DNA of 64,000 nt from positions 186,001 through 250,000 of the forward strand of contig NZ_JALEGV010000005.1 of the NCBI RefSeq assembly GCF_022763245.1. The letters run 5' to 3'. A program made the position numbers and the translations under genes. Source of the stretch: Oricola sp. (lineage in GTDB: Bacteria; Pseudomonadota; Alphaproteobacteria; Rhizobiales; Rhizobiaceae). The notes beneath the pieces are model-generated. The model saw only the letters and a program-made list of their open reading frames with translations. It made no database searches and was not told the DNA's origin. Positions 21,826-40,070 of this stretch are shown in pieces. Each line of letters begins with the position of its first letter. Within the stretch, counting starts at the first letter, position 1.

Positions 21826-22797
21826 TCAGCCGCTGAACATGGCGCTGGTTCGAATCTCCACCGCGCGCGGCAAAGCGCCTCCAGAGGCGTCGCTGGCGCT
21901 GATCAGGCGGTCGGCGACGGCAAACAGGTTGTGCTCCGTCATCACGCGTCGGCGCTGCGCGCGAATGCCGTCGTGCAGATCGTCGAAATCCGCGGTCTCG
22001 ATCAGATGCTCGATCGCCTGCAAGGCCTCATCGACCCTGAAGAGATCGATGTCGAGGCGCGCGCGCGCGTCGAAATCCTCGGCCGGGACCTTGCCGCCGG
22101 CATAGATCGGAAAGCAGTCGCCGAGATAGGCGTCGCCGAGTTTCTCCGTCCAGAACCCGTCGATCGTGTTGTTTTCCAGAACGACCGTGAAACGGTAAGG
22201 TGCGAGGCCGTCGGCCTTCTCCTCGATCGCGCTGAACCCGTTTCCGAAATGGTCGATCTGCGCGCCGAACCGCGTCTTCAGCGCTTCGACGAACCGAATG
22301 CGCAGCATTTGCTGCATGGTGAAGGTCTTGGCCGAGCAAACCACCGAAATCAGTTGCGATTTCTTCTTGTCGGCAGCCAGCTCGCGCCATGAGAAGGGCC
22401 GCGACTTGCCGTAATGCCAGGGAAGCGAAGAGTGGCTGCGGATATGGTGTCCGGCATATCGCGGAAGCGCGATCGGACCGACGACTGTGCCGAACTGGTC
22501 GAGATAGTTCGTCGGATATGTCTTGATTGAGGGCGGTTCGCCCAGGAACAGGATACGCCGTTCGACCGGCACAACGCTGCGCAGGCCGGCCGGCGGCTCA
22601 TCGCAGACGACGAGCCATTCAGAGCCCCACCCCGAGGGCTCGGCAGAAAAGGCGGTGCGGCCGAACACGCCGTCGCGGCCGGGTGTCTGGCGAAACCAGG
22701 TCTCGACGGGACCGTGCTCGGTGGCGAAATGCGCCCGGCTGGCGATCTCCGCGGGGTCGAAGTAAATGTTGGACCAATCTGATCGACTGTCGAGCAT
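21826..22797 (-). CDS. GT10 (fucosyltransferase-like) glycosyltransferase
   Basis: The 323-aa protein carries the C-terminal GT10 signature: FTVVLENNTIDGFWTEKLGDAYLGDCFPIYAG (given in part here), with the conserved ENN, TEKL and P-Y-G positions. GT10 enzymes use GDP-L-fucose, and some use related GDP sugars, to make alpha-1,3/4 linkages. The window also encodes the GDP-fucose pathway at 52.1-55.0 kb. The start at 22797 leaves only six bases to the divergent broken GT2 gene, so the promoters must overlap one of the coding regions or the true start is further in. A second GT10 lies at 23786-24745. Confidence 0.85.
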   Translation of the reverse strand: MLDSRSDWSNIYFDPAEIASRAHFATEHGPVETWFRQTPGRDGVFGRTAFSAEPSGWGSEWLVVCDEPPAGLRSVVPVERRILFLGEPPSIKTYPTNYLDQFGTVVGPIALPRYAGHHIRSHSSLPWHYGKSRPFSWRELAADKKKSQLISVVCSAKTFTMQQMLRIRFVEALKTRFGAQIDHFGNGFSAIEEKADGLAPYRFTVVLENNTIDGFWTEKLGDAYLGDCFPIYAGGKVPAEDFDARARLDIDLFRVDEALQAIEHLIETADFDDLHDGIRAQRRRVMTEHNLFAVADRLISASDASGGALPRAVEIRTSAMFSG

Positions 22798-23785: not shown

Positions 23786-24745
23786 TCAGGAGCGCCAGGG
23801 CCATTGCCAGCGCCGCACCTGCTCAGCGGATCGTGCGGCCACGATTTCGCAAAGGTGCCAGAACGGTTCCTTTTCGGCGTCGGACAAGAGCTGCCTGAAT
23901 TGCGGCGACAATCCCCTTTCCCGCCATCGGAAATACTGCCGATAGGCCTCGTCGTCGCTGTCGAGCCAAGTGAGATATTCCGCCAGTTCGGCCGGGCCGG
24001 CGAATTTCGACGCGTTGATGAATGAATCGCTGGCGGGTGCGAAACTGTCGGCATTAGGGGCGCCGAGATAGACGGGCACGGACCCTGCCAGAAGCGGGTC
24101 GAAGAGCTTCTCGGTGACGTAATCGACGGCGATCGAATTCTCGAAGGCGATGCAGAACTTGTAGCTGCCGATCAGCGCGCGTTTCGTCTCACTGCCGCGG
24201 TCTTCGAGGGGAAACTGCCTGTTGTTCATGAACCGGCCATAGGAATGGACCGGTATCCGGTTCATCAGTTCGCGCGCGAGAGGAATGCGCCCGCTGCGAT
24301 CGATTGAAGCGGACTGCAGCATGACGACCGGCGCGTCCGCGGTCTTGTCCGGCAGAGGGGCCGACACGGCATCCTCGAACGCCGAGGCCCACGGCAGATA
24401 CGAACACCACACGTCGGACGAGCGGCGATAAGTCATGGTCAGATCGAAGGCGCCCATGAAGTCCCGGTCGCGAAGCAGCGGGTAGTTGACATCGCTTTCC
24501 ATGGACCAGGCGACCCATAACTGGCCGCGGCGCTTGCGGAGGCGGGGCAGCTTGCGCATCGACGGCACGTGAAAGACCACTGCAGCCGCCTTGGAATAGG
24601 CCCGCCGATCCGTCGTGAAGATGCAACCGTCGCAACGGGCAAGCGACCGGGTGTCGGGTGGGCGGCCGAAGAAGTCGTTGTAGAAGAGGATGACCGGCCT
24701 CTCTCGGCTGTCTCCGCTGCGCGCACCGGGGCCTAGTGCTCGCAT
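23786..24745 (-). CDS. GT10 (alpha-1,3-fucosyltransferase-like) glycosyltransferase
   Basis: The ~319-aa protein has GT10 features in order: WVAWSMESDVNYPLL, an FDLTMTYRRSSDVWCSY acceptor-domain loop, then YKFCIAFENSIAVDYVTEKLF with PVYLGAPN, the GDP-fucose-binding core. The start at 24745 is preferred over the ATG at 24808, because it gives a TGATG stop/start overlap with the GT2 gene upstream, showing translational coupling. This is a closer match to classical fucosyltransferases than the GT10 protein at 21826. The donor is probably GDP-L-fucose from the gmd/fcl genes in this window, though GDP-L-galactose is also possible. Confidence 0.9.
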   Translation of the reverse strand: MRALGPGARSGDSRERPVILFYNDFFGRPPDTRSLARCDGCIFTTDRRAYSKAAAVVFHVPSMRKLPRLRKRRGQLWVAWSMESDVNYPLLRDRDFMGAFDLTMTYRRSSDVWCSYLPWASAFEDAVSAPLPDKTADAPVVMLQSASIDRSGRIPLARELMNRIPVHSYGRFMNNRQFPLEDRGSETKRALIGSYKFCIAFENSIAVDYVTEKLFDPLLAGSVPVYLGAPNADSFAPASDSFINASKFAGPAELAEYLTWLDSDDEAYRQYFRWRERGLSPQFRQLLSDAEKEPFWHLCEIVAARSAEQVRRWQWPWRS

Positions 24746-25530
24746 CACTGTTCGCCCCATTTCAGGAGCTTGCGCAAGCGCGTGATCCGCGGCCCTCGCT
24801 CCGGCCACAGGAATTGCGACTGGCGCGACATCATGTCGTTCAGTGTCTCCGCCATGAACCGCGCCTGGTCTTCAGTTTCGATGACGAAGTCGCGGCCATA
24901 GTCGATATGGCCGAAGACGCCGTTGTTGGTGCCCATGAACCCCAGATGCTGGGCATAGGAGCGCCGCGAGACGAGCACGCGCTTCCCCATCGCGACCAGT
25001 GCGGCGACTGCCGGCGCATCCCAACCCGACGCGCCTTCATCGCTCGATTGCGCAAGCGCTCGGTCCAGCAGGCCCGCATCCCAACATGTCGCGGTGCCGC
25101 CAGCGCTCGATTTCTCGACCAATTCACCGTCCATCTCGCGCTTCACCGCGTGCATGGTGGAATTGTAAAGGCCGAGAAAACCATCCGTGCGATCGAACAC
25201 CCGTTCGGTGAATTCCAGGAATGACGGCGAGAGAAGCATGTCGCTGTCGAGGATGATGATCCGTCGCGCACCGGCTTCAATGCAGTCGCGAAACAGCCGC
25301 ACCTGGCTGGCGTCGGGGCCGAGGTTGCGGTCATTCCGCACGACGCTGTCGGCTTGAGGAAACAGGGACGCGATCTCGCGGGCGTCGAATTCGCAGCTGG
25401 CGTCATCGCGAATGAAGATCCGGTAGCGATTAACACCACTCAGCTCGCGCAGGCTCTTCGAGAACGCCAGCAGATGACGCACACGGTTGAATGTCGGGAT
25501 CGCTATGATGTCCCTTCGATCCCGAAACAC
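24745..25530 (-). CDS. GT2-like glycosyltransferase
   Basis: The protein has the GT-A fold pattern IIAIPTFNRVRHLLAFSKSL, IFIRDDASCEFDAREI, and IIILDSDMLLSPSF as the DxD metal site. I chose the GTG at 25530 (about 261 aa) because GAGGGA lies ten bases before it and the GT-A domain starts directly after. An ATG at 25614 would add 28 residues of non-conserved sequence. It ends in a TGATG overlap with the GT10 gene downstream, so the two are coupled. The sugar and linkage are unknown. Confidence 0.82.
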   Translation of the reverse strand: MFRDRRDIIAIPTFNRVRHLLAFSKSLRELSGVNRYRIFIRDDASCEFDAREIASLFPQADSVVRNDRNLGPDASQVRLFRDCIEAGARRIIILDSDMLLSPSFLEFTERVFDRTDGFLGLYNSTMHAVKREMDGELVEKSSAGGTATCWDAGLLDRALAQSSDEGASGWDAPAVAALVAMGKRVLVSRRSYAQHLGFMGTNNGVFGHIDYGRDFVIETEDQARFMAETLNDMMSRQSQFLWPERGPRITRLRKLLKWGEQ

Positions 25531-27572: not shown

Positions 27573-29080
27573 CAACTGACGCAATGACCGAAAGACCTGA
27601 CGACCGCAGCCGGACCGATCGCAACTGGCGGGACAAGGAAGACCTTCCAGGCTCGGGACGCGGAATCGTGATCTGCGCGGGCGGACTGCAGATATTCACC
27701 AATGCCTGGGTGCTGGTCCGGCACCTGCGCAAGGTTCTCAGATGCGAGCTGCCCATCGAAGTCTGGCATCTCGGCCGTGAGGAGATGTCGAGCGGCATGC
27801 GCGGCATGCTTGAGGACGAATGCGCCCAGGTTGTCGATGCGTTTTCGCTCCTCTCTCGATTTCCGGCGCGGATTTCCGACGGGTGGCAATTGAAGCCGTA
27901 CGCGCTGATGACATCCGGCTTCCGCGAGGTGCTGATGCTGGATGCCGACAACATCCCTGCCCGCGACCCGACATTCCTTTTCGATCATCCCGCGTTCGCC
28001 GAGTACGGGGCAATCTTTTGGCCCGACGTCATCGATCTGTCCGAGCACAACCCCATCTGGCAGGAACTCGGTCTGCCTGCTGCCCGGCGAACATCTTTCG
28101 AGACGGGCCAGATCGTCATCGACAAAAGCAGGCACCGTACTGCTCTCAAAGCCACACTTGAATTGAATGAGGATGCACAGCGCTTCTATCGCCTCGTCTA
28201 CGGCGACAAGGACACGTTTCTCGCGGCGTGGCTCAAGACCAGGTCTCCGTATCTGCTCATACCGCACCGCCCGTTCACCGACCGGTATGTCAGCTACCAG
28301 CGTGACTTCGACGGCGAAGCCCTCTTCCAGCACCGGTCGAACGGCAAGTTTCAATATGACGACAAGCAGCCGTCCTCGCAGGCCTTCGCGTATGAAGCGG
28401 AATGCAGCGAGAGCCTCGGCGAGTTGCGACGGATCTGGAACGGGCGCTACTTCGAACCGCCAACACGATCGCCGTCGGCGATCAGGATTGAAGAGAACCT
28501 CGCAGGGCAGTCGTTCATTGTTTCGCGCTCGGGAGAGGAAGACCGGACGATCGAATTGCTCGCCTACTGGCAGATCGGCACGGGTCGCGACCACGACCAC
28601 GAGAACTGGTACGTCGCGGAGACGGAGGCAGGCGATCCCATGTTGCGGATCATGGATCGCCACCGCGTCAGGCACGAATTGCGCCTTCGGGAGGACGGCC
28701 AGTGGGTGGAGACAGACGACGCGGCGTCGGCTTTGTGCTTTTCACCGATGACTCCTGACGCCGGCGGCGAGATTCGACGCCACACGACGGGTTTCTTGCG
28801 GGCGGTCGTGGCGGCGGTGGTTGTCGGTGATGAATTGACGCCGGAAGCGGAAGAGGAGTTGCGCGTTACCCTCACGGTCCTCTGCAAGGCCGACCCGATC
28901 GTCATCGAGGATCTGGCGGCCTACGCCGAGCGTGCGACTGATCTCAGTGAACCCACCCAGCAGGGGCTGCAGAGGCTTGCGGTCGAGTTGAAGCGCGTCG
29001 TCGACGAGCGGCCGCGCCGCACGCCGCTGGACAGGCATGCCGAGATCCTGTTCGACCGTCGGCACTACGTCCGGCCCTGA
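27569..29080 (+). CDS. MNN1-like (GT71) glycosyltransferase with extra C-terminal domain
   Basis: The 503-aa protein's first ~280 residues resemble the alpha-mannosyltransferase MNN1 group: ELPIEVWHLGREEM, WQLKPYALMTSGFREVLMLD followed by ADNIPARDP (DxD-like), and SFETGQIVIDKSRH. The last ~200 residues contain a beta-rich part (ENWYVAETEAGDPMLRIMD) and a helical tail I do not recognise. The start ATG at 27569 overlaps the preceding stop as ATGA, which fixes the start well. With the adjacent GT62 gene it forms a pair of families mostly studied in fungal mannan synthesis. Confidence 0.82.
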   Translation: MTTDAMTERPDDRSRTDRNWRDKEDLPGSGRGIVICAGGLQIFTNAWVLVRHLRKVLRCELPIEVWHLGREEMSSGMRGMLEDECAQVVDAFSLLSRFPARISDGWQLKPYALMTSGFREVLMLDADNIPARDPTFLFDHPAFAEYGAIFWPDVIDLSEHNPIWQELGLPAARRTSFETGQIVIDKSRHRTALKATLELNEDAQRFYRLVYGDKDTFLAAWLKTRSPYLLIPHRPFTDRYVSYQRDFDGEALFQHRSNGKFQYDDKQPSSQAFAYEAECSESLGELRRIWNGRYFEPPTRSPSAIRIEENLAGQSFIVSRSGEEDRTIELLAYWQIGTGRDHDHENWYVAETEAGDPMLRIMDRHRVRHELRLREDGQWVETDDAASALCFSPMTPDAGGEIRRHTTGFLRAVVAAVVVGDELTPEAEEELRVTLTVLCKADPIVIEDLAAYAERATDLSEPTQQGLQRLAVELKRVVDERPRRTPLDRHAEILFDRRHYVRP

Positions 29081-29099
29081 GCCGGATGGCAACTGTCGG

Positions 29100-30338
29100 A
29101 TGAAGACGCTCTTCATAGCCCCCATGCTGCCGGATGACGCGGGCAACGGCCTTGCCATGCGTATGGGGACGTTCCTCGAAGCGCTGAGCGAACTCGGCGA
29201 AACCGACTTGCTGGCGGTGCCGGTATTCGGGTCAGGAACCGGCGAGAGCACGCTTTGCCGCCGTCTCGGCATCGAACCGCGAATCATCGACGTCGCGGGG
29301 CGCCTCGAAACGCATTTCGCCCTGCTTCGAAACCTGCCCGATCCGGAGGCACGCCTTGCGGCGTTCCGGGATTACGGCAAACCGTCGACCACGGCCGGCC
29401 TGTCGGTTCCCGTCATGCAGGACATCCGTCAGTTCGCTGCCGAGCGAAGCTACGACCTGATCCACGTAGCGCGCTCCTATCTCCTTCCCGTCATCGATGC
29501 ATGGCCGAAAGGAGAGAGGCCGACAATCTCTGTCGATCTGGACGAAGACGACGCCGAGACGCATCGCCGGATCGCCAGCCTGCACTCGCTTCGCGGCGAC
29601 GCCTACACCGCGCGATGGCTTGAAGCCGAAGCGCAGGCTTACGAGCGGGTGACCGCCCAGTGGCTACCCGCGGCGGACATCGCCCAGATCGCATCCGAAG
29701 GCGAAAGCGGCACGACTGCCAACCGCCACGGCATTCGACCGACAGTCGCTGTCAACACCGTGTCGGTGCCGCCCGAAGTTAGGCGCGATCCTGTAGAACG
29801 CACCCTGCTCTTCGTCGGCGGCTTCGGGTATTTTCCCAATCTGGACGCCGCGTTTTGGCTGCTTGAGGCGGTGCTGTCACGGACCCGTGATCTCTGCGGA
29901 GACACGGTGTCCATGACGATCGTCGGGCGGAACCCGCCGAAGCGGCTCCGCACGCTGGCAGAACAGTCGGGCGTCGAATTGCTCGCTCCAGAGGGCGATC
30001 TCGCTCACCTCTATGCCCGCGCCAGCATTGCCTTGGTTCCGCTTCGCGCGGGCGGCGGATCAAGAATCAAGCTGCTGGAGGCCGCCGCGCATCTGGTACC
30101 GATCGTCGCCACCTCTGCGGGCGCCGAGAATTCGGGTTTCGTCGACGGCGAGGACATCCGCATCGCCGACACCGCCGAGGCGATCGCCGAGGCATGCCAA
30201 GCGATCTGGAACAATCCCGGCCAGACCGCGCAGATGGCGGCCGCCGCGAGACGCCGCGTTGAGGCCACGCATTCGCGCCAGGCGATGATATCGACACTCA
30301 AAAGCTATTTTGCTAGTCAGCTTGGCGTTCCGGTTTGA
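29100..30338 (+). CDS. GT4 family glycosyltransferase
   Basis: The 412-aa GT-B enzyme has TLFIAPMLPDDAGNGLAMRM at the N-terminus and ERTLLFVGGFGYFPNLDAAFWLL before the C-terminal donor domain. The donor-site segment is SIALVPLRAGGGSRIKLLEA, with the E-x7-E type acid positions. The ATG at 29100, 20 bases after the previous stop, matches the domain start; an upstream TTG/ATG-type start at 29037 would overlap the previous gene. It is followed after 18 bases by the PqqD-like gene, so the glycosyltransferases and the kinase/peptide module are probably one transcript. Confidence 0.88.
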   Translation: MKTLFIAPMLPDDAGNGLAMRMGTFLEALSELGETDLLAVPVFGSGTGESTLCRRLGIEPRIIDVAGRLETHFALLRNLPDPEARLAAFRDYGKPSTTAGLSVPVMQDIRQFAAERSYDLIHVARSYLLPVIDAWPKGERPTISVDLDEDDAETHRRIASLHSLRGDAYTARWLEAEAQAYERVTAQWLPAADIAQIASEGESGTTANRHGIRPTVAVNTVSVPPEVRRDPVERTLLFVGGFGYFPNLDAAFWLLEAVLSRTRDLCGDTVSMTIVGRNPPKRLRTLAEQSGVELLAPEGDLAHLYARASIALVPLRAGGGSRIKLLEAAAHLVPIVATSAGAENSGFVDGEDIRIADTAEAIAEACQAIWNNPGQTAQMAAAARRRVEATHSRQAMISTLKSYFASQLGVPV

Positions 30339-30356: not shown

Positions 30357-30638
30357 TTGAATCTTGATATGTCGGCGCGCTACGTGCAGACCCCCAATCT
30401 GGAGATCAACGAGGCCCCCGACGGCTACGTGATCTATCAGTCCGATCCGGATCGCGTCCATTTCCTCAACACGACGGCTGCCGTCATGCTCGAACTCTGC
30501 AATGGCGAGCATTCGTTGCAGGACATCGCCGACATACTCCAATCCGCGTATGAACTCGACGCCGCGCCGATGGAGGAACTCTCTGCCTCGGCCTCGAACT
30601 TGATCGCCGAGGGCCTCATCCAGCCGTGCACAGGATAA
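30357..30638 (+). CDS. PqqD-like peptide-binding protein (RRE fold)
   Basis: The 93-aa protein is of PqqD length. It has the typical core: DGYVIYQSDPDRVHFLNTTAA, then MLELCNGEHSLQDIADIL and the winged-helix tail. PqqD-family proteins bind leader peptides and present them to modifying enzymes. The start is TTG at 30357: GAGGAG at 30344-30349 lies seven bases before it, while the nearest ATG (30369) would be 19 bases away. The following kinase gene starts inside this gene's end (GTG at 30626). NCBI-type annotations call such proteins part of an 'HPr-rel' system of unknown function (from memory). Confidence 0.85.
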   Translation: MNLDMSARYVQTPNLEINEAPDGYVIYQSDPDRVHFLNTTAAVMLELCNGEHSLQDIADILQSAYELDAAPMEELSASASNLIAEGLIQPCTG

Positions 30639-31450
30639 TCGTCCGCACGCTGACGCGCGAACTCAGACTGCATACAAATAGCGAGGAAGCCGCAGTCGAC
30701 CTCGCTTATGTCGGCGCGGACCCGGTGATGCCCGGGCGCGACTTGCAACCAATCGATCTGACGGTCGAGGCGACAGGCCCCTTCTTCCGGGTCGACCTAC
30801 CCGGTTTCAAGCTCATCGAAGGATCGATCGAAGAGGTTGTGGGCGGCGTGTTCCGCCTGCTGGCCGCCTGGCTTCTGGATGACACGCGAGGTTTGCCCCT
30901 CATGCATGCGGGTCTGGCCGTGATCGAAGGCCGGCGATTCGTCTTCCTCGGCGACAAGGGGTTCGGCAAGACCACGTTGATTCTCAGCCTGATCGAACGG
31001 GGAATCACGGTGGAGGGCGACGAGCACATCGTGCTGACGGCTGACAGCGCTATCACGAGACCGCGCCGGCTTCACGTCAAGGAGACCTCGGTCGACCTTG
31101 TTCCCGCGTTGCGCGACGCGATCCTCGCCTCTCCCTCCATGGCCGAATGGACGGGCAATCGAGTGTTCGCCTGCCCGCCGTCGATGCACGGCGCATCCTG
31201 GGAGATCGCGGAAGCCCCGATCGACCATGTCGTCTTCGTTACGCCGAATTTCGGCGGCTCATCGATTCTCTCTCCTCTATCAAGGGATGAAGCCTTTGCG
31301 CGCCTGATGGAAACCGCATTCCTGCCATCCGAAGGCCGAGGCAAGGCCGTCGCCCGACTGCGAAAACTCTGTATCGACGCGAAAAACTGGAATCTGCAGT
31401 CGGGAAATCTGGATCAGGCCCTCAAACACTTGCGAGCTGTGGCCAATTGA
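30626..31450 (+). CDS. HPr kinase/phosphorylase-like protein
   Basis: The 274-aa protein has an HprK-like P-loop GDKGFGKTT (residues 109-117), preceded by LMHAGLAVIEGRRFVFL and followed by GITVEGDEHIVLT, where HPr kinases have the second acidic pair. True HPr kinases phosphorylate a Ser of the phosphocarrier HPr. Close relatives in lasso-peptide clusters phosphorylate a C-terminal Ser of the peptide (established for paeninodin-type clusters). It overlaps the PqqD-like gene and is 44 bases before a 57-aa peptide gene, which suggests the peptide as substrate (inference). The start is GTG. Confidence 0.82.
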   Translation: MHRIIVRTLTRELRLHTNSEEAAVDLAYVGADPVMPGRDLQPIDLTVEATGPFFRVDLPGFKLIEGSIEEVVGGVFRLLAAWLLDDTRGLPLMHAGLAVIEGRRFVFLGDKGFGKTTLILSLIERGITVEGDEHIVLTADSAITRPRRLHVKETSVDLVPALRDAILASPSMAEWTGNRVFACPPSMHGASWEIAEAPIDHVVFVTPNFGGSSILSPLSRDEAFARLMETAFLPSEGRGKAVARLRKLCIDAKNWNLQSGNLDQALKHLRAVAN

Positions 31451-31494
31451 GTTACCCCAACCAGTATCAACACTGAAGAAACGGACGGTATGCA

Positions 31495-31668
31495 ATGAGT
31501 GATGAGCGCCTTGACAAACTCCTTCTCAAGGTTCCGGCTTCGCGTCGTAAGGTCGTGAAGGGACTTCTGATCGGCGCATTTGCCGCTCCGATGGTGACCT
31601 CGTTCCCGATGGACGGACGTCTGGCTGTCGATCAGGCCATGGCTGCTCCCAACGGCACGACGTCCTGA
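31495..31668 (+). CDS. 57-aa Tat-signal-like peptide, possible substrate of the adjacent kinase
   Basis: The small gene has ATG at 31495 with a purine-rich GGACGG about six bases upstream, and TGA at 31666-31668. The charged N-terminus (SDERLDKLLLK) is followed by ASRRKVVKG, which fits a twin-arginine pattern, then the hydrophobic LLIGAFAAPMV, then SFPMDG, and a short tail ending MAAPNGTTS with Ser as the last residue. I have seen the SRRxFLK / SFxMDG layout in small proteins beside PqqD and HprK-like genes in proteobacteria (from memory). A signal-peptidase-like AMA-A site would leave only about seven residues. Its function is unknown; a RiPP-like precursor or a Tat-targeted anchor are the two main options. 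Confidence 0.7.
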   Translation: MSDERLDKLLLKVPASRRKVVKGLLIGAFAAPMVTSFPMDGRLAVDQAMAAPNGTTS

Positions 31669-31696
31669 CGCCGTTTTCGGTTTCTACGCCTGACAT

Positions 31697-32809
31697 TTGA
31701 AGATTTCCGCCGCCCTTATCGTGCGAAACGAGGCCGCCATGCTTGGTGGCTGCCTCGAATCGCTGAAAGGGCAGGTGGATGAGGTTGTGATCGTCGATAC
31801 GGGTTCGACGGACGCAACATGCGAGATCGCACAATCCCACGGCGCCCGGCTCATGCATCACGCATGGACCGGCGACTTTTCCGAGGCGCGCAATCGCGGT
31901 CTCGACGCAGTCAGTGGCGATTGGGTTCTCTACATCGACGCCGACGAACGGCTCGTTCCCCTGCCCGGTTCCTCGCTGCAGGATATCGCCTCCGCATCAG
32001 GGCATGCCGCCTTCCGGATGAAATTCAGGCCGCGGGTCGGCTATTCGCCCTATAGCGAATTGCGCCTGTTCCGCGCCGATCCGAGGATTCGCTTCGAAAT
32101 GCGCATCCACGAGCGCATCCTGCCCAGCGTCATCCGGGTTTGCGAAAGCGACGGTCTTTCCATAGGCGAGACCGAGGCGGAACTCCAGCATCTGGGCTAT
32201 GAAGGCGACCAATCGCACAAGCACGAGCGCAACCTGCCCCTGCTGGCACGCGCCGTCGAGGACGATCCCGACCGGGTCTATTACTGGTGGCATCTCGGCG
32301 AGACGCTGGCGGCGATCGGAAACACGGATCAAGCCGAGGCGAAGCTGCGCGAAGGGGTCGAGACCGCCAGGCGAACCGAAACGCATCATGCGCTCATCGA
32401 GGCCGTCCTCGCCGTTCACGCACTGGCGCGCGTGTACCAACAGACCGGCAAGGCCGACAAGGCGCTGAGCGTTCTTGACGAGGGCCTCGCAATCCGCCCG
32501 GGCGACCCTGCGCTTCGTCTTCTCAAGGCTCGGTCACTGATCGATCTCGGACGCCATGCCGAAGCACTGCCGCTGCTAGCAGACCTGCCACTCGACGATC
32601 CCGAGACCTTTCATGATCCGGATGCGGCCTATGACCTGCGCATCTTCGGCGAATGGGCCAACGACCTGATCGGCCTCGCCCAGTTTCGCCTCGGTCGCTT
32701 CGCAGAGGCGCGGGACGCCTATCTGGCGGCTGCGGAACGCTCCAGCGACCCCGACCAGCATCGCGTGAAGGCGGCTCTTGCCGCCGCCCGCGCCGTCAGA
32801 AGCGCCTGA
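31697..32809 (+). CDS. GT2 glycosyltransferase with TPR repeats
   Basis: The 370-aa protein has an N-terminal GT2 domain: KISAALIVRNEAAMLGGCLESL, VIVDTGSTDAT and VLYIDADERL (DxD). TPR-like helices follow from about residue 190 to the end (YYWWHLGETLAAIGNTDQAE, LARVYQQTGKADKALSVLDE and FRLGRFAEARDAYLAAAE). The start is a TTG directly before KISAALIV; no strong ribosome site is seen, so it may depend on coupling to the peptide gene 28 bases upstream. Its end overlaps the convergent nucleotidyltransferase by 14 bases. GT2-TPR proteins are common in alphaproteobacterial surface-glycan loci. Confidence 0.85.
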   Translation: MKISAALIVRNEAAMLGGCLESLKGQVDEVVIVDTGSTDATCEIAQSHGARLMHHAWTGDFSEARNRGLDAVSGDWVLYIDADERLVPLPGSSLQDIASASGHAAFRMKFRPRVGYSPYSELRLFRADPRIRFEMRIHERILPSVIRVCESDGLSIGETEAELQHLGYEGDQSHKHERNLPLLARAVEDDPDRVYYWWHLGETLAAIGNTDQAEAKLREGVETARRTETHHALIEAVLAVHALARVYQQTGKADKALSVLDEGLAIRPGDPALRLLKARSLIDLGRHAEALPLLADLPLDDPETFHDPDAAYDLRIFGEWANDLIGLAQFRLGRFAEARDAYLAAAERSSDPDQHRVKAALAAARAVRSA

Positions 32810-33899
32810 TCTTCGGAAGCATCGAAGCGATCACCCTGGCGCGAAGCACCTGGCGGCGAACCAAGTTGCCACCCCCGTCGATCCGGCGCAGTCGGTCGCC
32901 TGCCCAGGCCAGGCGTATCTCTTCTCCATATCCCGGATATTTCCAGATTGCCTCGCTGCGGACGGACAGGACGGTCCGCGCCTGCTCCGCAGCATCCTTC
33001 CTGACCGCGAACGGCGCATTAACAGGCATGGAGTAGAACAGCGCCGCTGCCGCGACCCAGAGATCGAGCACCGCGGCGAGCCACGGATGAGCCGACGCGC
33101 GCGCGACAAGCCTGTGCCGCTGTTCCTCAGTCAGTTCGCCGGCGGCCCAGGCGAATTCGTGAAGTCCCTTGAGACTGATGGTGCCCCGCGCGAAGGCGCT
33201 GTGGCCGATATGGTGATGGATGAGGGCGTGGAGCAGATGGGTGGCCGGGTCGAGCAGGCCAACCGACAGCCCCCCATCGGACGACACAGTCGTGGCGCGG
33301 GCCAGTTCTTCGGTCGGCAGCAGGCGCTCCGCATAGCGGTTGCCACCGCGCCTGTGGATTTCCATCCAGCCGCTCAGCCTGGCATTGTAAAGCGGCGTCA
33401 GATGATGACGGTGCGGACGGTGCGGCAAATCCGGGTCTGGATGATACCCCTCCGCAACCAATGCCTTCTGGGCCGCATGCGCGGCATCGGAGGGCACCAG
33501 CAGATCGATATCACGCATGTAGCGCCAGGCCGGTTGGCCCGTCCACAAGGACTGAGCCCCCTTCAGCAGGATCGGCTCGATCCCCTGCCCGTTCAGGACC
33601 GACACGATCTCGCGGAGGAGTTGCGCCATCTCCTCCCGCCGGGCGTGGTGCGAAGAAAGATATTGCTGCAGCGTGTCGGCCGGGCCCGGACGCCCCGGGC
33701 TAGACGGCGGCACCAGCACGTTCTCCAGAAGCCGCTCCGCCAGGACGGAGAGCAGCATGTCCTCCCCGGCAAAAGCCGTCAGATCCCGCAGCACACCAGG
33801 AACAAACAACCGCGCGCGCAGAGGCGCGAGCTGATCTGGGCGAAGATCCAGGGACAGACATTCGCCCAGCAACCATGGTCGAACGGGATCAGGCGTCAT
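32796..33899 (-). CDS. Nucleotidyltransferase-family protein of the HprK/PqqD type
   Basis: The 367-aa protein contains the polymerase-beta-like pattern of the NTP_transf_5 family: PILLKGAQSLW (residues 109-119) and YMRDIDLLVPSD (127-138) with the two catalytic Asp. The flanking helices HLLHALIHHHIGHSAF and LHEFAWAAGEL are also typical. The family is found with HPr-kinase-like and PqqD-like proteins, including in some lasso-peptide clusters. It lies convergent to the operon holding those genes, with a 14-base overlap, so it belongs to the same module by association. It could add a nucleotide or phosphate group to a peptide or carrier (inference). Confidence 0.8.
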   Translation of the reverse strand: MTPDPVRPWLLGECLSLDLRPDQLAPLRARLFVPGVLRDLTAFAGEDMLLSVLAERLLENVLVPPSSPGRPGPADTLQQYLSSHHARREEMAQLLREIVSVLNGQGIEPILLKGAQSLWTGQPAWRYMRDIDLLVPSDAAHAAQKALVAEGYHPDPDLPHRPHRHHLTPLYNARLSGWMEIHRRGGNRYAERLLPTEELARATTVSSDGGLSVGLLDPATHLLHALIHHHIGHSAFARGTISLKGLHEFAWAAGELTEEQRHRLVARASAHPWLAAVLDLWVAAAALFYSMPVNAPFAVRKDAAEQARTVLSVRSEAIWKYPGYGEEIRLAWAGDRLRRIDGGGNLVRRQVLRARVIASMLPKIRRF

Positions 33900-34117: not shown

Positions 34118-34192
34118 TGGCTGGGGCGGCTGGATTCGAACCAGCGCATGGCGGTACCAAAAACCGCTGCCTTACCGCTTGGCTACGCCCCA
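34118..34192 (-). tRNA. tRNA-Gln (anticodon UUG)
   Basis: The 75-base gene on the minus strand has the acceptor pair TGGGGCG / CGCCCCA and an encoded CCA end. The anticodon stem GCGGT / ACCGC carries the loop TTTTGGT with anticodon TTG, and the T arm is CTGGTTCGAATCCAG. All features of tRNA-Gln are present. The gene lies between the convergent end of the kinase/peptide region and the Wza/Wzc operon. Confidence 0.95.
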
Positions 34193-34535
34193 ACGTGATG
34201 TTCGCGCAGCGTTGCCCCGCAAACATGTTCCGCCGGTATATTCGAGCGGAACCGGCTGTCAACCGTCCTTGCAGGTGACACTGGCATATTGGGAACGCCT
34301 TCGGCGTGACCAACTCGCGACGGTCACACCGCACAAGCCAATTTTCCGACGGGCTGACCGTGGCACTCCATCTCTTGACCGTTCCAAGACCGGCGACCGG
34401 CCACGTCCCTGCCGTATTTGCCTGAAATTTGGGTGTTTATCTCGCCTATGGTGCGATGGTAGAGACTGCGAAAAGCACAGACCTGTATTGGGGAACGGTT
34501 TGCTGAAGGCCATTGATTCTGCGAACGGAGGGCAA
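34193..34535. other. Intergenic region between tRNA-Gln and the export operon
   Basis: These 343 bases should hold the tRNA-Gln promoter on the minus strand and the promoter of the export operon on the plus strand. The reading frame of the Wza-like gene is open through it, but the lipoprotein signal only starts at 34536, so I do not treat it as coding. No clear operator or hairpin was seen. Confidence 0.5.
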
Positions 34536-35267
34536 ATGCTGCGGCTGGTGATTGCCGGGCTCGCGACGCTTGTCCTGTGTGCCTGCAGCAGCACTGGTGC
34601 GTCATTGGAAGACGCAGCCAATTCATATGCAGGGAACGGGTCATCAGGCGAATTAAGACTCGTCCCGGTGCTGCCCGCTCCGGCCAACACCAACAACGGG
34701 CTCGAACAGCGGCTCGCGGCGAACGACCTCATCAAGGTCGATGTGTTTCAGGTCGACGAATTGGACAGACAGGTCCGAATCGACCCGCAGGGCCGCATCA
34801 ACCTGGCACTGATCGGAATGGTGGAAGCCGGCGGCAAAACCATTCAGGAGCTGGAAACAGGGATCGAGCAGGCCTACGGCGCAAAGTATCTACAGAACCC
34901 AGAGGTCTCGGTCTTCGTCGAGGAGTCCGCCGGCCAGCAGATCACGGTCGACGGGGCCGTGCGCAAACCAGGCGTCTACACCGCATCCAGCACGTCCACC
35001 CTTTTGGAGGTCGTCGCAAAGGCTGGCGGTTTCACCGAAACCGCGGATGACCAGAAGCTCTATGTTTTCCGCGACGTCGGCGGACGCAAACTTGTGGCCA
35101 ACTACAACGTGAAGAACATCCGGAGCGGCAAGGCACGAGACCCGCGCATTTTCGGTGGTGACGTGATTGTGTCGTTCCGATCCGGGTCGAAAGTTGCTAT
35201 GCAGAACCTGCGTCAGGCCTTGGGAGTTGCGACGAGCGCGTCGTCACTCGCTGTTCTTCCGCTTTAA
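34536..35267 (+). CDS. Wza/ExoF-like polysaccharide export lipoprotein
   Basis: The 243-aa periplasmic/outer-membrane protein starts at an ATG with GGAGG five bases before it. This start gives a lipoprotein signal LRLVIAGLATLVLCACS, with Cys17 as the likely lipidated residue. The Poly_export domain is RLAANDLIKVDVFQVDELD and IDPQGRINLALIGMVEAGG. An SLBB-type segment ITVDGAVRKPGVYTASS follows. It is shorter than E. coli Wza and like the export proteins of rhizobial EPS systems. With the Wzc-like kinase downstream it should form the periplasm-spanning export channel. Confidence 0.9.
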   Translation: MLRLVIAGLATLVLCACSSTGASLEDAANSYAGNGSSGELRLVPVLPAPANTNNGLEQRLAANDLIKVDVFQVDELDRQVRIDPQGRINLALIGMVEAGGKTIQELETGIEQAYGAKYLQNPEVSVFVEESAGQQITVDGAVRKPGVYTASSTSTLLEVVAKAGGFTETADDQKLYVFRDVGGRKLVANYNVKNIRSGKARDPRIFGGDVIVSFRSGSKVAMQNLRQALGVATSASSLAVLPL

Positions 35268-35324: not shown

Positions 35325-37667
35325 GTGAACAAGTTCGAACCAGACAGGCGCGCCTATGACCTGCCCGCTCCGACGCAGCGGGGCGTGGCGTATTATCAGG
35401 AGCCGCCAGTCGGATACGGGCATTTTGCCGAAGAGGAAGAAGACAGCCTCGATCCGCTCAAGCTGATCTGGTTTGTCGTCCAGTATCGGTGGCTGATTGC
35501 GGCCTTCGCTCTCGCGGGCTTGGCCATCGGCGTCTTCGCCACCTATCTCCAGACACCACTTTATCAGGCAACGACGAAGGTCGAGGTGATCACCCCAAGT
35601 GCCAAGGTGATTCAGGATCTCGAGCTCGTCGCCCAAGCATCGGATCTGCGTGCATTCGAGACCGCCCGCGAGAAGATGCTCAGCCGAGACCTCGCCCGGC
35701 GTGTCGTCTTCGCGCTCAATCTGACCGAAGACGAGAAATTTCTGGCGCCGACACCGAGCTTCTCGCTGACCAATCTTTTCAATCGGATTCTTGACCGGTC
35801 TCCATCGGCGGACCTTGAAGATCTGAGTGCGGAGACGCGCGAGGCGATGGCTGTGGCAAGGGTGCGAGGCGGATTGTCCGTCTCGTTGCTCCGCAACACC
35901 TCGATCCTCTCGGTAACCTACAGCCACGCCGACCCGAAATATGCAGCGGAGGTGTCTCGTCAGGTCGTTCGCAGCTTTATCGACCAGAATGTCGACAAGA
36001 CAAGCGAGACTTCTGACCTCGCCCGCCAATTCATCGAACAGCAGGTGCGTGAGACAAAAGAGAAGCTGCAGGAATCGGAGCGCGCGCTTGTTGCCTATGC
36101 CAAGGATGCCGGGATCACGCTGACCGGCAATGACGCCTCGCTGATCTCGGAGAACATCTCGAAGCTCAACGCTGCCCTGGCCGAGGCTCTGCAGGACCGA
36201 CTGAAATCAGAGGCGTATGTTGACCAGGTCAAAGAGGGAAATGCAGCAACCCTTCCCGAGGTTTTCGAGAGCGACTCGATCCAGAGCACAAAACAGAAGA
36301 TCGCGGAACTGAGGGCCAGTTATCAGGAGAAGCTGACGACGTTGAAGCCGGGGTTTCCGGAAATGCAGCGCATTCAGTCCCAGATCACGGAACTCCAGAA
36401 TCAGATCGACGCGGAAATCGGAGCGATCGCACGTGCGGCGGAAATCCGGCTCGCACAGGCTGAGGAACGAGTGTCCGGGCTTCGCAACGAGATCACGAAG
36501 CTCGAAGCCGAACAGTCGGAATTTCAGGACAAGAACATTCAGTACACGATCCTGCGCCGGGAGGTTGAATCCAACCGGTCGCAATATGACAGCTTGATTT
36601 CCAAACTGAACGAAGTCGGCGTCGGTTCCGATCTGAAGACCAACAACGCCTCGATCATCGATCTCGCAACGGTCCCTGGGATTCCTTACTCGCCGAGCCT
36701 GAAGCGGAATGTGGCGCTGACGCTTGCCCTGTTCCTCGCTCTGGCCGCCGGGCTCGTTTATTTGCTAGAACTGATGCGCAACACGTTCACCGTCCCGGAC
36801 CAGGTTGAAAACGAACTGAAGATCCCGGTGCTCGGAATTCTTCCACGCAAGACGGAGGACGAGATCCAAGTCGAGATGAAGGATCCGAAGTCAGGTCTTT
36901 CCGAAGCCTACCGGTCGCTGCGCACATCTCTGCAGTTCACCGGCGTCGGCGACTCCATGCATACCTTGCTGGTGACCTCGCCGGATCAGTCGGAGGGCAA
37001 GAGCACGACCGCCTTCAGGCTTGCGCATGACTTCTCAGCGCTCGGCAAGAAGGTGCTGGTGGTCGATGCCGACATGCGCAACCCCCGCATGCACCGTCTC
37101 TTCCAGACCGAGAATTCGGCCGGTCTCAGCAATGTTCTGTCGAACGTCCTGCGTAAGGGCGACGTCAGTTCGATCCTGCACAAGACCGCCGATCCACGGA
37201 TTACGCTCCTGCCGGCCGGTACCATTCCGCCGAACCCTGTCGAACTGTTGATGTCGCAGAAGATGGCGGCGGCGCTGGGACACATGTCCAAGGCCTATGA
37301 CATCGTCATCGTCGATTCTCCACCGGTGCTCGGTCTCGCGGATGCCCCGGTGCTGAGCCGATTGGCGGATGCGACGCTGCTCGTCGTGTCTTCCAAACAG
37401 GTGACCCGCAAGGCCGCCAAGCACGCCTTGGATCGACTGCGGAATGCATCGGGTAATGTTGTCGGCGCTGCGTTGACGAAATTCGCTATCGACAAGTTCG
37501 ACTACAGCTATGCTTATCGCTACACATATTACAACTATTACAATTACGACAACGCATCGGTAGAGATCGAGGACCATGCAACACGAGGCGCCAAGGGCGA
37601 TATCGCCGGCAAGCTGGCTCGCGGCGGGTCTGGTCTCGTTGGTCGTTTCAAGCGCCGTTTTGATTAA
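35325..37667 (+). CDS. Wzc/ExoP-like polysaccharide co-polymerase and tyrosine autokinase
   Basis: The 780-aa inner-membrane protein has two membrane segments: WLIAAFALAGLAIGVFATYL (~55-75) and NVALTLALFLALAAGLVYLL (~463-482). They enclose a Wzz-type periplasmic region with long coiled coils. The cytoplasmic BY-kinase domain has Walker A SPDQSEGKSTT (Lys559), Walker A' KVLVVDADMRNPRM and Walker B IVIVDSPPVLG. A Tyr-rich cluster, YSYAYRYTYYNYYNYDN, lies near residues 727-743, the site of autophosphorylation in this family. It sets chain length and controls export with the Wza-like protein. The start is GTG. Confidence 0.93.
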   Translation: MNKFEPDRRAYDLPAPTQRGVAYYQEPPVGYGHFAEEEEDSLDPLKLIWFVVQYRWLIAAFALAGLAIGVFATYLQTPLYQATTKVEVITPSAKVIQDLELVAQASDLRAFETAREKMLSRDLARRVVFALNLTEDEKFLAPTPSFSLTNLFNRILDRSPSADLEDLSAETREAMAVARVRGGLSVSLLRNTSILSVTYSHADPKYAAEVSRQVVRSFIDQNVDKTSETSDLARQFIEQQVRETKEKLQESERALVAYAKDAGITLTGNDASLISENISKLNAALAEALQDRLKSEAYVDQVKEGNAATLPEVFESDSIQSTKQKIAELRASYQEKLTTLKPGFPEMQRIQSQITELQNQIDAEIGAIARAAEIRLAQAEERVSGLRNEITKLEAEQSEFQDKNIQYTILRREVESNRSQYDSLISKLNEVGVGSDLKTNNASIIDLATVPGIPYSPSLKRNVALTLALFLALAAGLVYLLELMRNTFTVPDQVENELKIPVLGILPRKTEDEIQVEMKDPKSGLSEAYRSLRTSLQFTGVGDSMHTLLVTSPDQSEGKSTTAFRLAHDFSALGKKVLVVDADMRNPRMHRLFQTENSAGLSNVLSNVLRKGDVSSILHKTADPRITLLPAGTIPPNPVELLMSQKMAAALGHMSKAYDIVIVDSPPVLGLADAPVLSRLADATLLVVSSKQVTRKAAKHALDRLRNASGNVVGAALTKFAIDKFDYSYAYRYTYYNYYNYDNASVEIEDHATRGAKGDIAGKLARGGSGLVGRFKRRFD

Positions 37668-38790
37668 CGGCGCAGCGAACCTCCTTTCGCCGACGAACCC
37701 ATTACTGTCATTGCGACTGAACCCGCTGCGCTCCGACGAACGGATTGCGATCGCACTCGCGGACCTCGAAGGCGACGGCGTCAGGCCCTTGGTCGAGACC
37801 GGCCTCGCCCTTTCGCCGATCGATGCACGTTTCTACAGTTTGATGGGCATCGAAACCGAGCTCGGCGATGATGTCGAAGGAGCGTCTCGCTTCTATCGGT
37901 ATTCGCTGTCGCTTCTGCCGACGGAAATCCAGGCGCTCATTCGGCAGTTGGCCATCGACGTCAATGAGACGCGGTACGAAGATGCGGCGCTGAAGCTGGA
38001 GCTCCTGTCGCGGCGCTGGCCGGACAAATGGAACGCGATCGAACCTGTCCTGCCCTATGTGCTCTCGGACGCGGATGCCTATGCGACGATCATGCAGCGC
38101 TTCGGCGACTACCCGCCTGCGCGCACGCTGCTGATAAACAGCCTGACTCGACGGACCGAGTGGGTTCCGCTTGCCTATCAACTCGTCGTGGACTGGCAGG
38201 CGCGCGATCCGGAAGGATTGGAAGGCGCGATCGGGCAGGTCTCGAGGGCGTTCCTGCGCGACAAGCAATATGCGCAAGCCTACCTGCTGTTCCAAATGAC
38301 ACGTCCCGAGGGGGCTTCCCCCGGCTTTGTCTACAATGGGGATTTCGCGCGAGACTTCTCTGCCTCGCCATTCGATTGGCAGGTGCGCAGGCAGTCCGGC
38401 GTCAGTCTCGAGCGAAAAGGCCAGGGCGATGTCGCTTCGCTTTCGGTCCGGTTTCTCGACAACCCCATCCAGTTCAACAACATACGTCAGGTGATCCGCC
38501 TGATACCGGGCGCCTATGAACTGACGCTTGCCTATTCCGGGCGCGACCTCGTCATGCCGAAGCCGATCCAGATCGCGCTGCGGTGCGTGCAGGGCAATGC
38601 GACGATCGCCGCCGCCCCCCTGGCCGCCGGAACGTTCGAAAGGCGTGACACGCTCGCTTTCGATGTTCCGCCGACAGGCTGCCCGTTGCAGGAAATCTTT
38701 TTTTTCAACGAGAAGCTTCCGATGAGCTGGCAGAACCGGTATCGCGGAACGCTGATGCTCGATTCCGTTTGGATCTCCCGGAGAAGCTGA
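37576..38790 (+). CDS. Membrane-anchored protein with TPR-like helices and a C-terminal beta-sandwich
   Basis: The 404-aa protein has one N-terminal membrane segment (LAAGLVSLVVSSAVLINGAANLL). A helical, TPR-like region of about 230 residues follows, then a beta-rich C-terminus from GFVYNGDFARDFSASPFDWQV to LDSVWISR, which resembles galactose-binding/CBM-like folds. It overlaps the kinase gene by 92 bases and is followed at once by the ligase/polymerase gene, so it belongs to the export operon. A periplasmic glycan-binding helper for polymerisation is a fair inference. I do not recognise a named family. Confidence 0.75.
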   Translation: MQHEAPRAISPASWLAAGLVSLVVSSAVLINGAANLLSPTNPLLSLRLNPLRSDERIAIALADLEGDGVRPLVETGLALSPIDARFYSLMGIETELGDDVEGASRFYRYSLSLLPTEIQALIRQLAIDVNETRYEDAALKLELLSRRWPDKWNAIEPVLPYVLSDADAYATIMQRFGDYPPARTLLINSLTRRTEWVPLAYQLVVDWQARDPEGLEGAIGQVSRAFLRDKQYAQAYLLFQMTRPEGASPGFVYNGDFARDFSASPFDWQVRRQSGVSLERKGQGDVASLSVRFLDNPIQFNNIRQVIRLIPGAYELTLAYSGRDLVMPKPIQIALRCVQGNATIAAAPLAAGTFERRDTLAFDVPPTGCPLQEIFFFNEKLPMSWQNRYRGTLMLDSVWISRRS

Positions 38791-38792
38791 GC

Positions 38793-40070
38793 GTGTCTGC
38801 CGCCATCACCCCCTCGCCCCGCTATGCCGGTCTCATGATCGTGCTCGCGCTGGTGCTGGGCGGCGGCACCGCCCAAGGATTGTGGACCGATCACCTCATC
38901 GAACTGGCGATGATGCCGGCGCTGTTCCTCGGCCTGGCCAATCTCAGAGGTTCCCGGCTCGACGGCGCGGCCCAGCTTCTTGTGCTGCTCGTCATCGGCG
39001 TCGTGTTCCTCCAGTTCCTGCCGGCCTGGCGGTCGATTCCCCTGCTGGGAGAGGGAGCAATGGGATTCTGGTCGCCTGCCCCGCAAAAGGCGCTGGAAGC
39101 CGGTCTCTTCACTTTCGCGACACTGGGCTTCTTTCTCTATGTGTCCGGGATGGGAGACCGCGAGCGGGAGCGCTGCATCCCGTATTTCTATATTGGCCTC
39201 TTCATCAACGCCACGATTGCGATCGTGCAACTGTCCTACGGGCGTTCCGCAACCATCGCCGGCATCCTTCCGTTTGCGATGACGACGGGTCTCTTCGCCA
39301 ATGAGAACCATTTCTCGAGCCTTTTCTTCGCGATGATCCCGCTTCTCGCCTACAGCCTGATCGTCCGCCGGGAGAGCGTCTTGATGTTCCTCTGTGTGAG
39401 CATACTGCTGGTCGGCATCCTGTTTGCCGTCGGTTCGCGCGCCGGGATGGGGATATCGACAGCCATCGCCGTCATTTCCCTGCTCTGGTTCATGCCGGTG
39501 AGGAACCGCAAATTGGCTCGGCTCCTCGCGACGGTCGTCGGCGTGCTTATGGTCATCGCGACCATCGTCCTGTTCGGATCGGGCAGTTCCATCGAAAGCG
39601 ACGCGCGCTGGATCATGTTCTCAACCACGTCCAAGGCGATCGCCGGTCACTGGCTGTTCGGCTCAGGTCTCGGCACATTCACCTTTGTCTATCCAACCTA
39701 TGAGACATTGGAGAACGTCATTCGGACCTATGCCAACCACGCGCATAACGACTATCTGGAGATCATTCTCGAACTGGGCCTCGCCGGCATCGTTCTCATT
39801 GCAGCCTATGTCGTGCTCGTCGCGCGCGGTCTGTTTCGATCAGAGCAATCGGAGACTGCGTTCCTGGCACTTCTCGCGCTGGGCCTGCATTCGCTCGTGG
39901 ACTATCCGCTTCGCACACTGGCAATGGCGACGACATTCGCGTTCTTCTCGGCTCTGATCCTCACACGCGCAGAAGCGCAGCCCAAGAAGAGATCGCCGAA
40001 GCGGTCATCGCGCCGTCGTCGCAGCCGTTCGACGGTCATCGAGCACACACCGGTTCCGGAAGCAGGGTGA
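38793..40070 (+). CDS. O-antigen ligase/Wzy-family membrane protein
   Basis: The ~425-aa protein has about ten or more hydrophobic segments and the Wzy_C/WaaL signature region YANHAHNDYLEIILELGLAGI in the large periplasmic loop near the C-terminal third. It ends in a basic cytoplasmic tail rich in Arg and Lys. The GTG at 38793, three bases after the previous stop and with GGAG upstream, is preferred over a TTG at 38769. Such proteins either polymerise repeat units (Wzy) or ligate them to lipid A (WaaL); the Wza/Wzc neighbours favour polymerase. No Wzx flippase is present in the window. Confidence 0.85.
   Translation: MSAAITPSPRYAGLMIVLALVLGGGTAQGLWTDHLIELAMMPALFLGLANLRGSRLDGAAQLLVLLVIGVVFLQFLPAWRSIPLLGEGAMGFWSPAPQKALEAGLFTFATLGFFLYVSGMGDRERERCIPYFYIGLFINATIAIVQLSYGRSATIAGILPFAMTTGLFANENHFSSLFFAMIPLLAYSLIVRRESVLMFLCVSILLVGILFAVGSRAGMGISTAIAVISLLWFMPVRNRKLARLLATVVGVLMVIATIVLFGSGSSIESDARWIMFSTTSKAIAGHWLFGSGLGTFTFVYPTYETLENVIRTYANHAHNDYLEIILELGLAGIVLIAAYVVLVARGLFRSEQSETAFLALLALGLHSLVDYPLRTLAMATTFAFFSALILTRAEAQPKKRSPKRSSRRRRSRSTVIEHTPVPEAG

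Follow-up and report, generated by a model that had tools for sequence, protein, structure and literature searches.

The question raised by this locus is why four unlike genes, coding for a PqqD-like protein, an HprK-like kinase, a 57-amino-acid (aa) peptide and a convergent NTP_transf_5 enzyme (hereinafter NTP5), stand together among glycosyltransferase genes in a 64,000-nucleotide stretch of an Oricola sp. genome (contig NZ_JALEGV010000005.1, positions 186,001 to 250,000; this whole stretch is hereinafter the window). An earlier note, made from the sequence alone, had proposed that they are a module that phosphorylates or nucleotidylates the peptide. All four genes lie where it placed them; its four-gene composition is incomplete, as it did not name a fifth gene right after the peptide gene (31697-32809), which codes for a glycosyltransferase with Pfam Glycos_transf_2 and TPR matches (hereinafter GT2-TPR) and is part of the module. 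Our favoured reading, which we hold to be on balance the likely one, is that the module is a linear, non-lasso cassette resembling those of the ribosomally synthesized and post-translationally modified peptides (RiPPs), in which the peptide, guided by a PqqD-type protein, would be glycosylated and, where HprK and NTP5 are present, phosphorylated and probably phospho-glycosylated, after which it would be exported.

The module and its enzymes

The five genes are arranged as follows (window coordinates):

30357-30638, + strand: discrete PqqD-like RiPP recognition element (RRE), 93 aa; TTG start; Pfam PqqD 30.9 bits against a cut-off of 23.4
30626-31450, + strand: HprK-like kinase, 274 aa; 13-base overlap with the PqqD-like gene
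31495-31668, + strand: precursor peptide, 57 aa; begins 44 bases after the HprK-like gene
31697-32809, + strand: GT2-TPR glycosyltransferase, a predicted peptide glycosyltransferase; directly 3′ of the peptide gene
32796-33899, - strand: NTP5 (PF14907), nucleotidyltransferase-fold enzyme; 72.5 bits against a Pfam cut-off of 31.2

The NTP5 gene is convergent with the GT2-TPR gene, with a tail-to-tail overlap of 14 bases. A profile of 12 homologs of the PqqD-like protein, searched against PDB, recovered the lasso RRE TfuB1 (E 0.0011), PqqCD/PqqD (0.0019, 0.0032) and the RRE of the linear polyphosphorylated peptide (LPP) system (9x8z, E 0.024), and we predict this protein to be a leader-peptide binder. 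The best NCBIfam match of the HprK-like protein is TIGR04352 (HprK_rel_A; 50.9 bits against a cut-off of 200), and it falls below the Pfam cut-off too. A 29-row profile built on it best matches HprK structures (1ko7, 5.8e-8; 2qmh and 1jb1, 2.6e-7), and its AlphaFold2 model (pLDDT 94.6) retrieved PEPCK first (2.8e-9) and HprK next (5.1e-6) in Foldseek, two families that share one fold. Among 40 homologs H94 is kept in 33, G112 in 37, G114 in 39, K115 in 38 and D132 in 39; the protein thereby displays the HprK-type signature of a conserved His, the Walker A motif GxxGxGK[ST] and an Asp-acid pair on the HprK/PEPCK fold.

The closest solved relatives of the GT2-TPR profile are GmaR (2.8e-38) and SunS (2.5e-26), of which the former glycosylates flagellin and the latter a bacteriocin; it also matches 7msk (2.9e-22), named just Glyco_trans_2-like, and the window protein scores 68.7 bits with the SunS model TIGR04195, below its cut-off of 350. 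In NTP5, residues K113, G114, R126, D130 and D132 (K-G, R and DxD) are kept in 25-26 of 27 homologs, and its AlphaFold2 model (pLDDT 86.4) resembles minimal nucleotidyltransferases (MenT1, TM1012, ANT(2'')) and, weakly (E about 0.2), the glycan-modifying enzyme FKRP.

The peptide gene and its linkage to the enzymes

The nearest ortholog that we found of the 57-aa peptide, in the Hyphomicrobiales metagenome bin L189 (loci are designated L, genomes G and contigs C), aligns with it gap-free over 57 codons at 68% aa identity when its open reading frame (ORF) is read from an inner ATG; the differences are distributed 12/12/30 over codon positions 1/2/3, a third-position excess. Other relatives occur as one copy at L053 and as three and seven tandem copies at L043 and L044, respectively, and K8, R18, A28, F29, P32, V34, S36, F37, M39 and D40 are invariant in the 12 sequences of these loci and the window. 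As it has orthologs, tandem copies, a third-position excess and a fixed place, the ORF is, on sequence grounds, a real gene; the alternative that it is not one, in favour of which it can be said that no Pfam or NCBIfam family matches the peptide, retains a negligible probability against these four observations. The peptide consists of a leader (SRRKVVKGLLIGAFAAPMVTSFPMDG...), an AxA-type site at residues 48-50 and a short core ending in PNGTTS. When 385 genomes of the class were searched with a profile of the window-type peptide (A2), the only matches were the window locus itself and an ArsR-like regulator in G518, which we rejected as a false positive; the window subtype is therefore rare there.

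The gene order is conserved beyond the window. It reads PqqD, HprK, peptide and GT2-TPR, with NTP5 convergent, both here and at L053. L043 and L044 keep it too, with three insertions (another HprK gene, a Mannosyl_trans3 gene and one of GT4 type), and have their three or seven peptide genes between HprK and GT2-TPR. At all three of these loci GT2-TPR follows the peptide as it does in the window.

The most independent test of the linkage started from a GT2-TPR alignment, which gave 80 listed loci in roughly score order; two duplicates were dropped (L192, the same as G219, and L223, the same as G138), and some of the peptides come as near-identical pairs (L235/L236). Among the first 47 loci a leader peptide was present at 39 (at 37 of them no more than 1 kb upstream of the glycosyltransferase), PqqD at 44, HprK at 30 and NTP5 at 14 within the fetched stretch, and 13 of the listed loci have PqqD and the peptide without HprK. 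The last 31 yielded each of the four just once, all at L259, which is close by E-value. By these counts PqqD, the peptide and GT2-TPR form the core of this branch, and HprK and NTP5 are an addition to it; the tightest-linked enzyme in the branch is GT2-TPR, and not the HprK and NTP5 named in the earlier note. The loci at which GT2-TPR is accompanied by PqqD and a leader peptide belong to records with the labels Alpha-, Beta-, Gamma- and Deltaproteobacteria, and also Actinomycetes, Dadabacteria, Rokubacteria and Acidobacteria.

Searches starting from HprK gave a consistent picture in two sets, one of 36 order-level loci (the window plus 35 that we selected, not strictly by rank, among the stronger of over 100 matches to the HprK profile) and one of 40 phylum-level loci in 39 genomes picked for diversity; proportions hold for these picks. 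In the order-level set 31 loci have PqqD, 25 have NTP5, 24 have a leader peptide and 21 combine the three, which bears out the idea that genes of the PqqD/HprK/NTP5 set are usually accompanied by a small leader peptide. In the phylum-level set the corresponding counts are 22 for PqqD, 30 for NTP5, 29 for the peptide and nine for all, where the PqqD count may be an understatement as the order-level set had served to train the counting profiles for PqqD, HprK and NTP5. The 29 phylum-level peptides comprise 17 that reach 12 bits or more against a profile partly trained on them and 12 recognized by eye from an RR...P pattern. Pattern scans (RR followed by a hydrophobic stretch) gave antisense artefacts and missed peptides with KR, and profile scans were added. 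The unbiased figure comes from a hold-out leader profile, trained solely on 37 peptides of 21 order-level loci. Applied to the phylum-level set, it picked up 13 ORFs scoring 8 bits or more, spread over 12 loci; twelve of these ORFs have HprK no more than 2 kb away, and the remaining one, which adjoins another copy, has it at 2081 bp. Of 4981 shuffled ORFs, one attained 8 bits.

Starting from the peptide, 46 of 297 genomes of the order match at E<=0.01; our counts use the 22 that match at E<=1e-6, all of which have an HprK-profile match (base rate 69/297). Eight of the 22 lay outside the building of the profile, and two of these eight hold near-copies of its rows. Several of the matches are orphan precursors far from the enzymes. 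Seven orphan RR-leader precursors (L173, L174, L175, L176, L177, L178 and L179), with tails mostly rich in Gly/Asn, occur in four genomes of a single genus (g90), where distances of 15 kb to about 2 Mb separate them from the HprK match. The Oricola genome itself contains two further PqqD/HprK/NTP5 loci on contig C18 (L036, 1685-5601, and L037, 4049-9201), which have one and three RR-leader peptides, respectively, with Thr/Pro-rich, mucin-like tails, and one HprK-GT2 fusion each. At L041 (8786-10261), a locus with four RR-leader peptides, an AraC-type regulator carries the PqqD domain as a C-terminal fusion.

Leader, core and putative export signal

Counting one peptide per locus, a Pro follows [RK]R at 43 of 44 GT2-TPR-linked loci, with a spacing of 13-14 in 37. 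In peptides found via profiles that already held the motif, position P-3 is F/Y/W in 42/43 and P+2 is V/I/L in 43/43. An aromatic-xxPx[L/V/I] motif of this kind is bound by the RREs of lasso and LPP systems (PMC10368454, PMC13381572). The leader thus unites [RK]R, [FYW]xxPx[VIL] and an AxA site, with the core after the AxA-like site; in the window it reads FAAPMVTSFPMDG. A discrete PqqD-fold RRE beside a small precursor with a conserved leader and a variable core is what generally marks an RRE-dependent RiPP system, and all of this is found here.

The cores contain N-x-[ST] in 30 of 43 cases, compared with a mean of 13.0 and a maximum of 24 in 2000 shuffles. Of 18 loci where HprK and NTP5 are both present, seven have a C-terminal Ser in the peptide, as against none of 26 others (Fisher 0.0008, a test that ignores kinship). 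Certain cores are repetitive, with PNQ repeats in L194 (7602-7949), L210 (3383-3691) and L231 (7599-7964) and SNM repeats in L218 (7516-7938). These four peptides stand beside PqqD and GT2-TPR in actinobacterial-labelled records, and HprK and NTP5 were not found within the fetched stretches.

Ahead of its hydrophobic stretch and AxA the window peptide carries SRRKVVK. It does not match the TAT_signal_seq model, and two relatives match it below the cut-off; export by the twin-arginine translocation (Tat) route is plausible from the sequence, and the leader Arg may serve a purpose other than export. The C-terminal regions vary widely among relatives. The leader peptide of L206 (7502-7945) has a long tail that is a Peptidase_S74 domain, that of L209 (7130-7980) looks similar by eye, and L211 (972-1565) perhaps has one likewise. 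The peptides of L202, L216, L225, L226 and L234 end in a hydrophobic stretch and an Arg cluster, which we take to resemble IPTL-CTERM sorting tails; the L202 peptide matches no Pfam family.

Proposed mechanism, known relatives and rival explanations

On the favoured reading, the discrete PqqD-like RRE would bind the leader via its FxxPxV motif, and GT2-TPR would add a sugar in the cytoplasm to the short core, at or beside the conserved Asn (N-G-T in the window). The HprK-like kinase would phosphorylate a hydroxyl, most plausibly that of the C-terminal Ser, and NTP5 would extend the phosphate, most plausibly with a hexose as the pseudomycoidin nucleotidyltransferase does; neighbouring glycosyltransferases may lengthen the glycan. 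By analogy, such a phospho-glycosylation step is probable where HprK and NTP5 occur together. The twin-arginine hydrophobic leader would double as an export signal (Tat or Sec), and cleavage at the AxA site would release a modified peptide of about seven residues in the window's case, or else the leader would stay as a membrane anchor. With regard to the chemistry proposed in the earlier note, phosphorylation joined to glycosylation appears likelier, and nucleotidylation as the main chemistry is less favoured since a comparable enzyme pair yields a phospho-hexose in pseudomycoidin (PMC8498205).

Several observations weigh against this reading. What the sequences establish is which genes are present and in what order, the leader motif, the reality of the peptide gene and the families of the enzymes; the catalytic steps, modified residues and export route, and the role of the product as a surface- or EPS (exopolysaccharide)-associated glycopeptide, are predictions. 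The near-uniform leader motif was counted in profile-selected peptides, as said; among 21 further HprK-linked loci, 14 show the 13-14 spacing and just four an aromatic residue at P-3. Eleven of the 18 loci with HprK and NTP5 lack a C-terminal Ser. The case for Tat is weakened by 15 of 58 GT2-TPR-linked peptides that have Lys in place of the first Arg and no additional Arg (nine of these being tandem copies of L043/L044; a raw count of 19 KR included four KRR) and by the L191 peptide (12.1 bits), which has neither RR nor KR. Of the 47 GT2-TPR-listed loci, where some stretches end at contig ends, 17 yielded no HprK and 33 no NTP5, and the four genes named in the earlier note are therefore not obligate partners. 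At eight of the 47 no peptide was recognized, and inspection showed no obvious one; nor was a peptide found near 12 of the 36 order-level and 11 of the 40 phylum-level HprK loci, which qualifies the proposed co-occurrence of the four families without making it rare at the loci examined. The module is also patchy: a single-sequence HprK search matched two of 101 relatives, including its own genome, and none of five same-genus genomes. This search was insensitive, as the HprK profile later matched G094, G095 and G100 of these 101. A first contig scan with the HprK alignment A1 gave no matches.

Among known systems the nearest is LPP, found in Bacillota, whose clusters combine an RRE, an HprK-like kinase, an NTP transferase, an SpI peptidase and an MsbA-like transporter without a cyclase of their own; it came to light in loci for capsular polysaccharide, and LppK adds several phosphates to one Ser (PMC13381572). 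The window module shares with it the discrete PqqD-type RRE, the HprK-like kinase and the NTP transferase in the absence of a macrolactam cyclase, as well as precursors (35-200 aa in LPP) with a constant N-terminus, a variable C-terminus and an aromatic-xxPx[V] leader motif (PMC13381572). Unlike LPP, window-type loci have an export-like leader with RR/KR, and directly after the peptide comes a glycosyltransferase related to SunS/GmaR; moreover, they occur outside Bacillota, to which the LPP authors describe their system as restricted (Nat Commun 2026, PMC13381572); beyond the aromatic-xxPxV part, the LPP motif YxxPxVLxHQxIxFETxxS is absent from the window peptide. The archaeal-type (SipW-like) signal peptidase TIGR02228 was over its cut-off in none of five genomes; the match in the Oricola genome reaches 22.3 bits, under the cut-off of 51.85, at C26:4127, some 180 kb from the window. 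No MsbA-like transporter was seen among the part of the window ORFs that was scanned with Pfam, a scan not dedicated to transporters. Because the remainder of the leader motif is missing, no TIGR02228 match is over the cut-off and the module lies outside Bacillota, it is, as judged from sequence, not LPP in the strict sense.

In lasso systems, HprK-like kinases phosphorylate the C-terminal Ser of precursors, after which, in pseudomycoidin, a nucleotidyltransferase adds hexose (PMC8498205), and the RRE strongly speeds the HprK-like lasso kinase (PMC10368454). The window module resembles the paeninodin/pseudomycoidin type in its RRE, HprK-like kinase, nucleotidyltransferase and YxxPxL-type leader motif (PMC8498205, PMC10368454), and differs from it in having GT2-TPR and neither a cyclase nor a B2 protease. 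The earlier note had likewise reported no lasso cyclase or B2 protease, and the genome agrees: the B2 peptidase PF13471 has no match in it (G000), and PF00733 (Asn_synthase) has three partial matches (23.9-27.5 bits against a cut-off of 21) that all lie on C33 and C35 and not on C26, the contig of the window; on these grounds we rejected a lasso system. The window core, APNGTTS, lacks what we take to be the usual lasso ring residues. It remains to ask if the module could be LPP or lasso proper with its missing genes elsewhere in the genome, as the shared trio of RRE, HprK-like kinase and NTP transferase and the aromatic-xxPx[VIL] motif would allow. Moreover, lasso-like genes can share a genome with such a module: in the relative G219, on contig C27 (about 2082-3148) and apart from the module contig, a PF13471 match lies ~450 bases from a weaker HprK match and is possibly a separate lasso-type cluster. 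In view of the PF13471, PF00733 and TIGR02228 results in the Oricola genome, the divergent leader and the taxonomic restriction of LPP, we consider this improbable. The expectation of a different kind of system thus holds as regards lasso peptides, but a linear class with PqqD, HprK and an NTP transferase is already published for Bacillota (PMC13381572).

More distant likenesses exist. HPr-rel-A (NCBIfam TIGR04352/TIGR04353) also pairs an HprK-related kinase with a PqqD-type protein; the window proteins are far below its cut-offs (TIGR04352 as given above; TIGR04353 20.1 against 35 bits). Loci looking like HPr-rel-A (L105, L106, L111, L113, L114, L117, L119, L125, L128 and L136), from other classes, have near HprK, at 20-401 bases, a small RR protein of 82-228 aa and of the type RRxLLKGxxxxxPxxxTLxSGAALA, which is possibly the substrate of that system. 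As in glycocins, a gene for a SunS-related peptide glycosyltransferase adjoins that of its precursor; unlike glycocins, whose cores are Cys-rich and which are not known to have an RRE, the window type has a Cys-free core and a PqqD-type RRE. Bufferins and other MNIO RiPPs have precursors with a Sec export signal peptide (PMC12452194) and resemble the window type in the export-type leader; they differ in their enzymes, and the window type has a twin-Arg-type leader and an RRE. In the open-access literature, a scope that makes absence weak, no paper on the version with the RR leader and GT2-TPR turned up, and there was no mention of HPr-rel-A, TIGR04352, TIGR04353, PF14907, NTP_transf_5 or 'HprK-related kinase A'. 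RRE-glycosyltransferase fusions are mentioned in one RRE-mining paper (PMC7470986); another (PMC12710340) contained none of the terms looked for, and a Sphingomonas EPS paper had no PqqD or HPr.

The genes flanking the module, which bear on a further alternative, are as follows:

23786-24808, - strand: GT10 (fucosyltransferase) family, Pfam PF00852, 123.1 bits
27431-29080, + strand: Mannosyl_trans3 family glycosyltransferase, Pfam PF11051; relatives at L043, L044, L052 and L053 (shared cluster)
29037-30338, + strand: GT4-type glycosyltransferase upstream of the module, Pfam Glyco_trans_1_4; relatives at L043, L044 and L052 (shared cluster)
34179-35267: polysaccharide export-protein-like gene, below family cut-offs
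35325-37667: Wzz gene
38769-40070: Wzy_C gene

A GT10 relative adjoins the module at L053 and lies ~1 kb from it at L043. A second GT10-related gene in the window (21826-22797) is marginally below the Pfam cut-off, and a tRNA-Gln gene (34118-34192, - strand) lies between the module and the polysaccharide export genes.

With this setting, the peptide might be a membrane-anchored polysaccharide primer or anchor, its leader uncleaved, to which GT2-TPR adds the first sugar and on which the glycosyltransferases of the locus build a chain. The nearby export-protein-like, Wzz and Wzy_C genes, the Mannosyl_trans3, GT4 and GT10 relatives common to window-type loci and the very short tails after the hydrophobic stretch all suit this idea; the AxA-type sites immediately before many tails and the long extra C-terminal domains of some relatives (Peptidase_S74 at L206) do not, and we give it a minor share of the probability. 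A slim chance attaches to the notion that the substrate of HprK and NTP5 is a sugar or glycan of the locus, the peptide being an unrelated small secreted protein that happens to be encoded there. The weak FKRP resemblance of the NTP5 model would fit it, as would the fusions of HprK to a GT2 domain at L036, L037, L041, L051, L056, L060 and L062; it is opposed by the retention of the peptide in place over many lineages, its tandem copies, its RRE-type leader motif and the orphan precursors in HprK-carrying genomes (cf. the 22/22 genomes above).

Returning to the favoured cassette with its supposedly guided, glycosylated and exported peptide, what is new is the RR export-type leader and the added GT2-TPR gene, which make it a variant of the already known LPP/pseudomycoidin-type systems, in whose manner it would work. 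A bolder version, which we offer tentatively and consider rather unlikely as a whole, would see here a multi-phylum class of micro-glycopeptides: a single leader would be both the RRE element and the twin-arginine signal, GT2-TPR would glycosylate an Asn-centred core (N-x-S/T, PNQ or SNM), possibly on the Asn, HprK/NTP5 would place a phospho-sugar on the C-terminal Ser, and the product would be displayed on the surface or seed EPS.

The findings extend the idea of linear peptides handled by an RRE, HprK and an NTP transferase beyond Bacillota and join it to a peptide glycosyltransferase and an export-type leader. They offer candidate short substrates for glycosylation, namely N-x-S/T and PNQ repeats, and a peptide partner for the PqqD/HprK/NTP genes that bear names without a function in such loci. 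Should the leader double as RRE ligand and export signal, a single sequence would couple modification and secretion.

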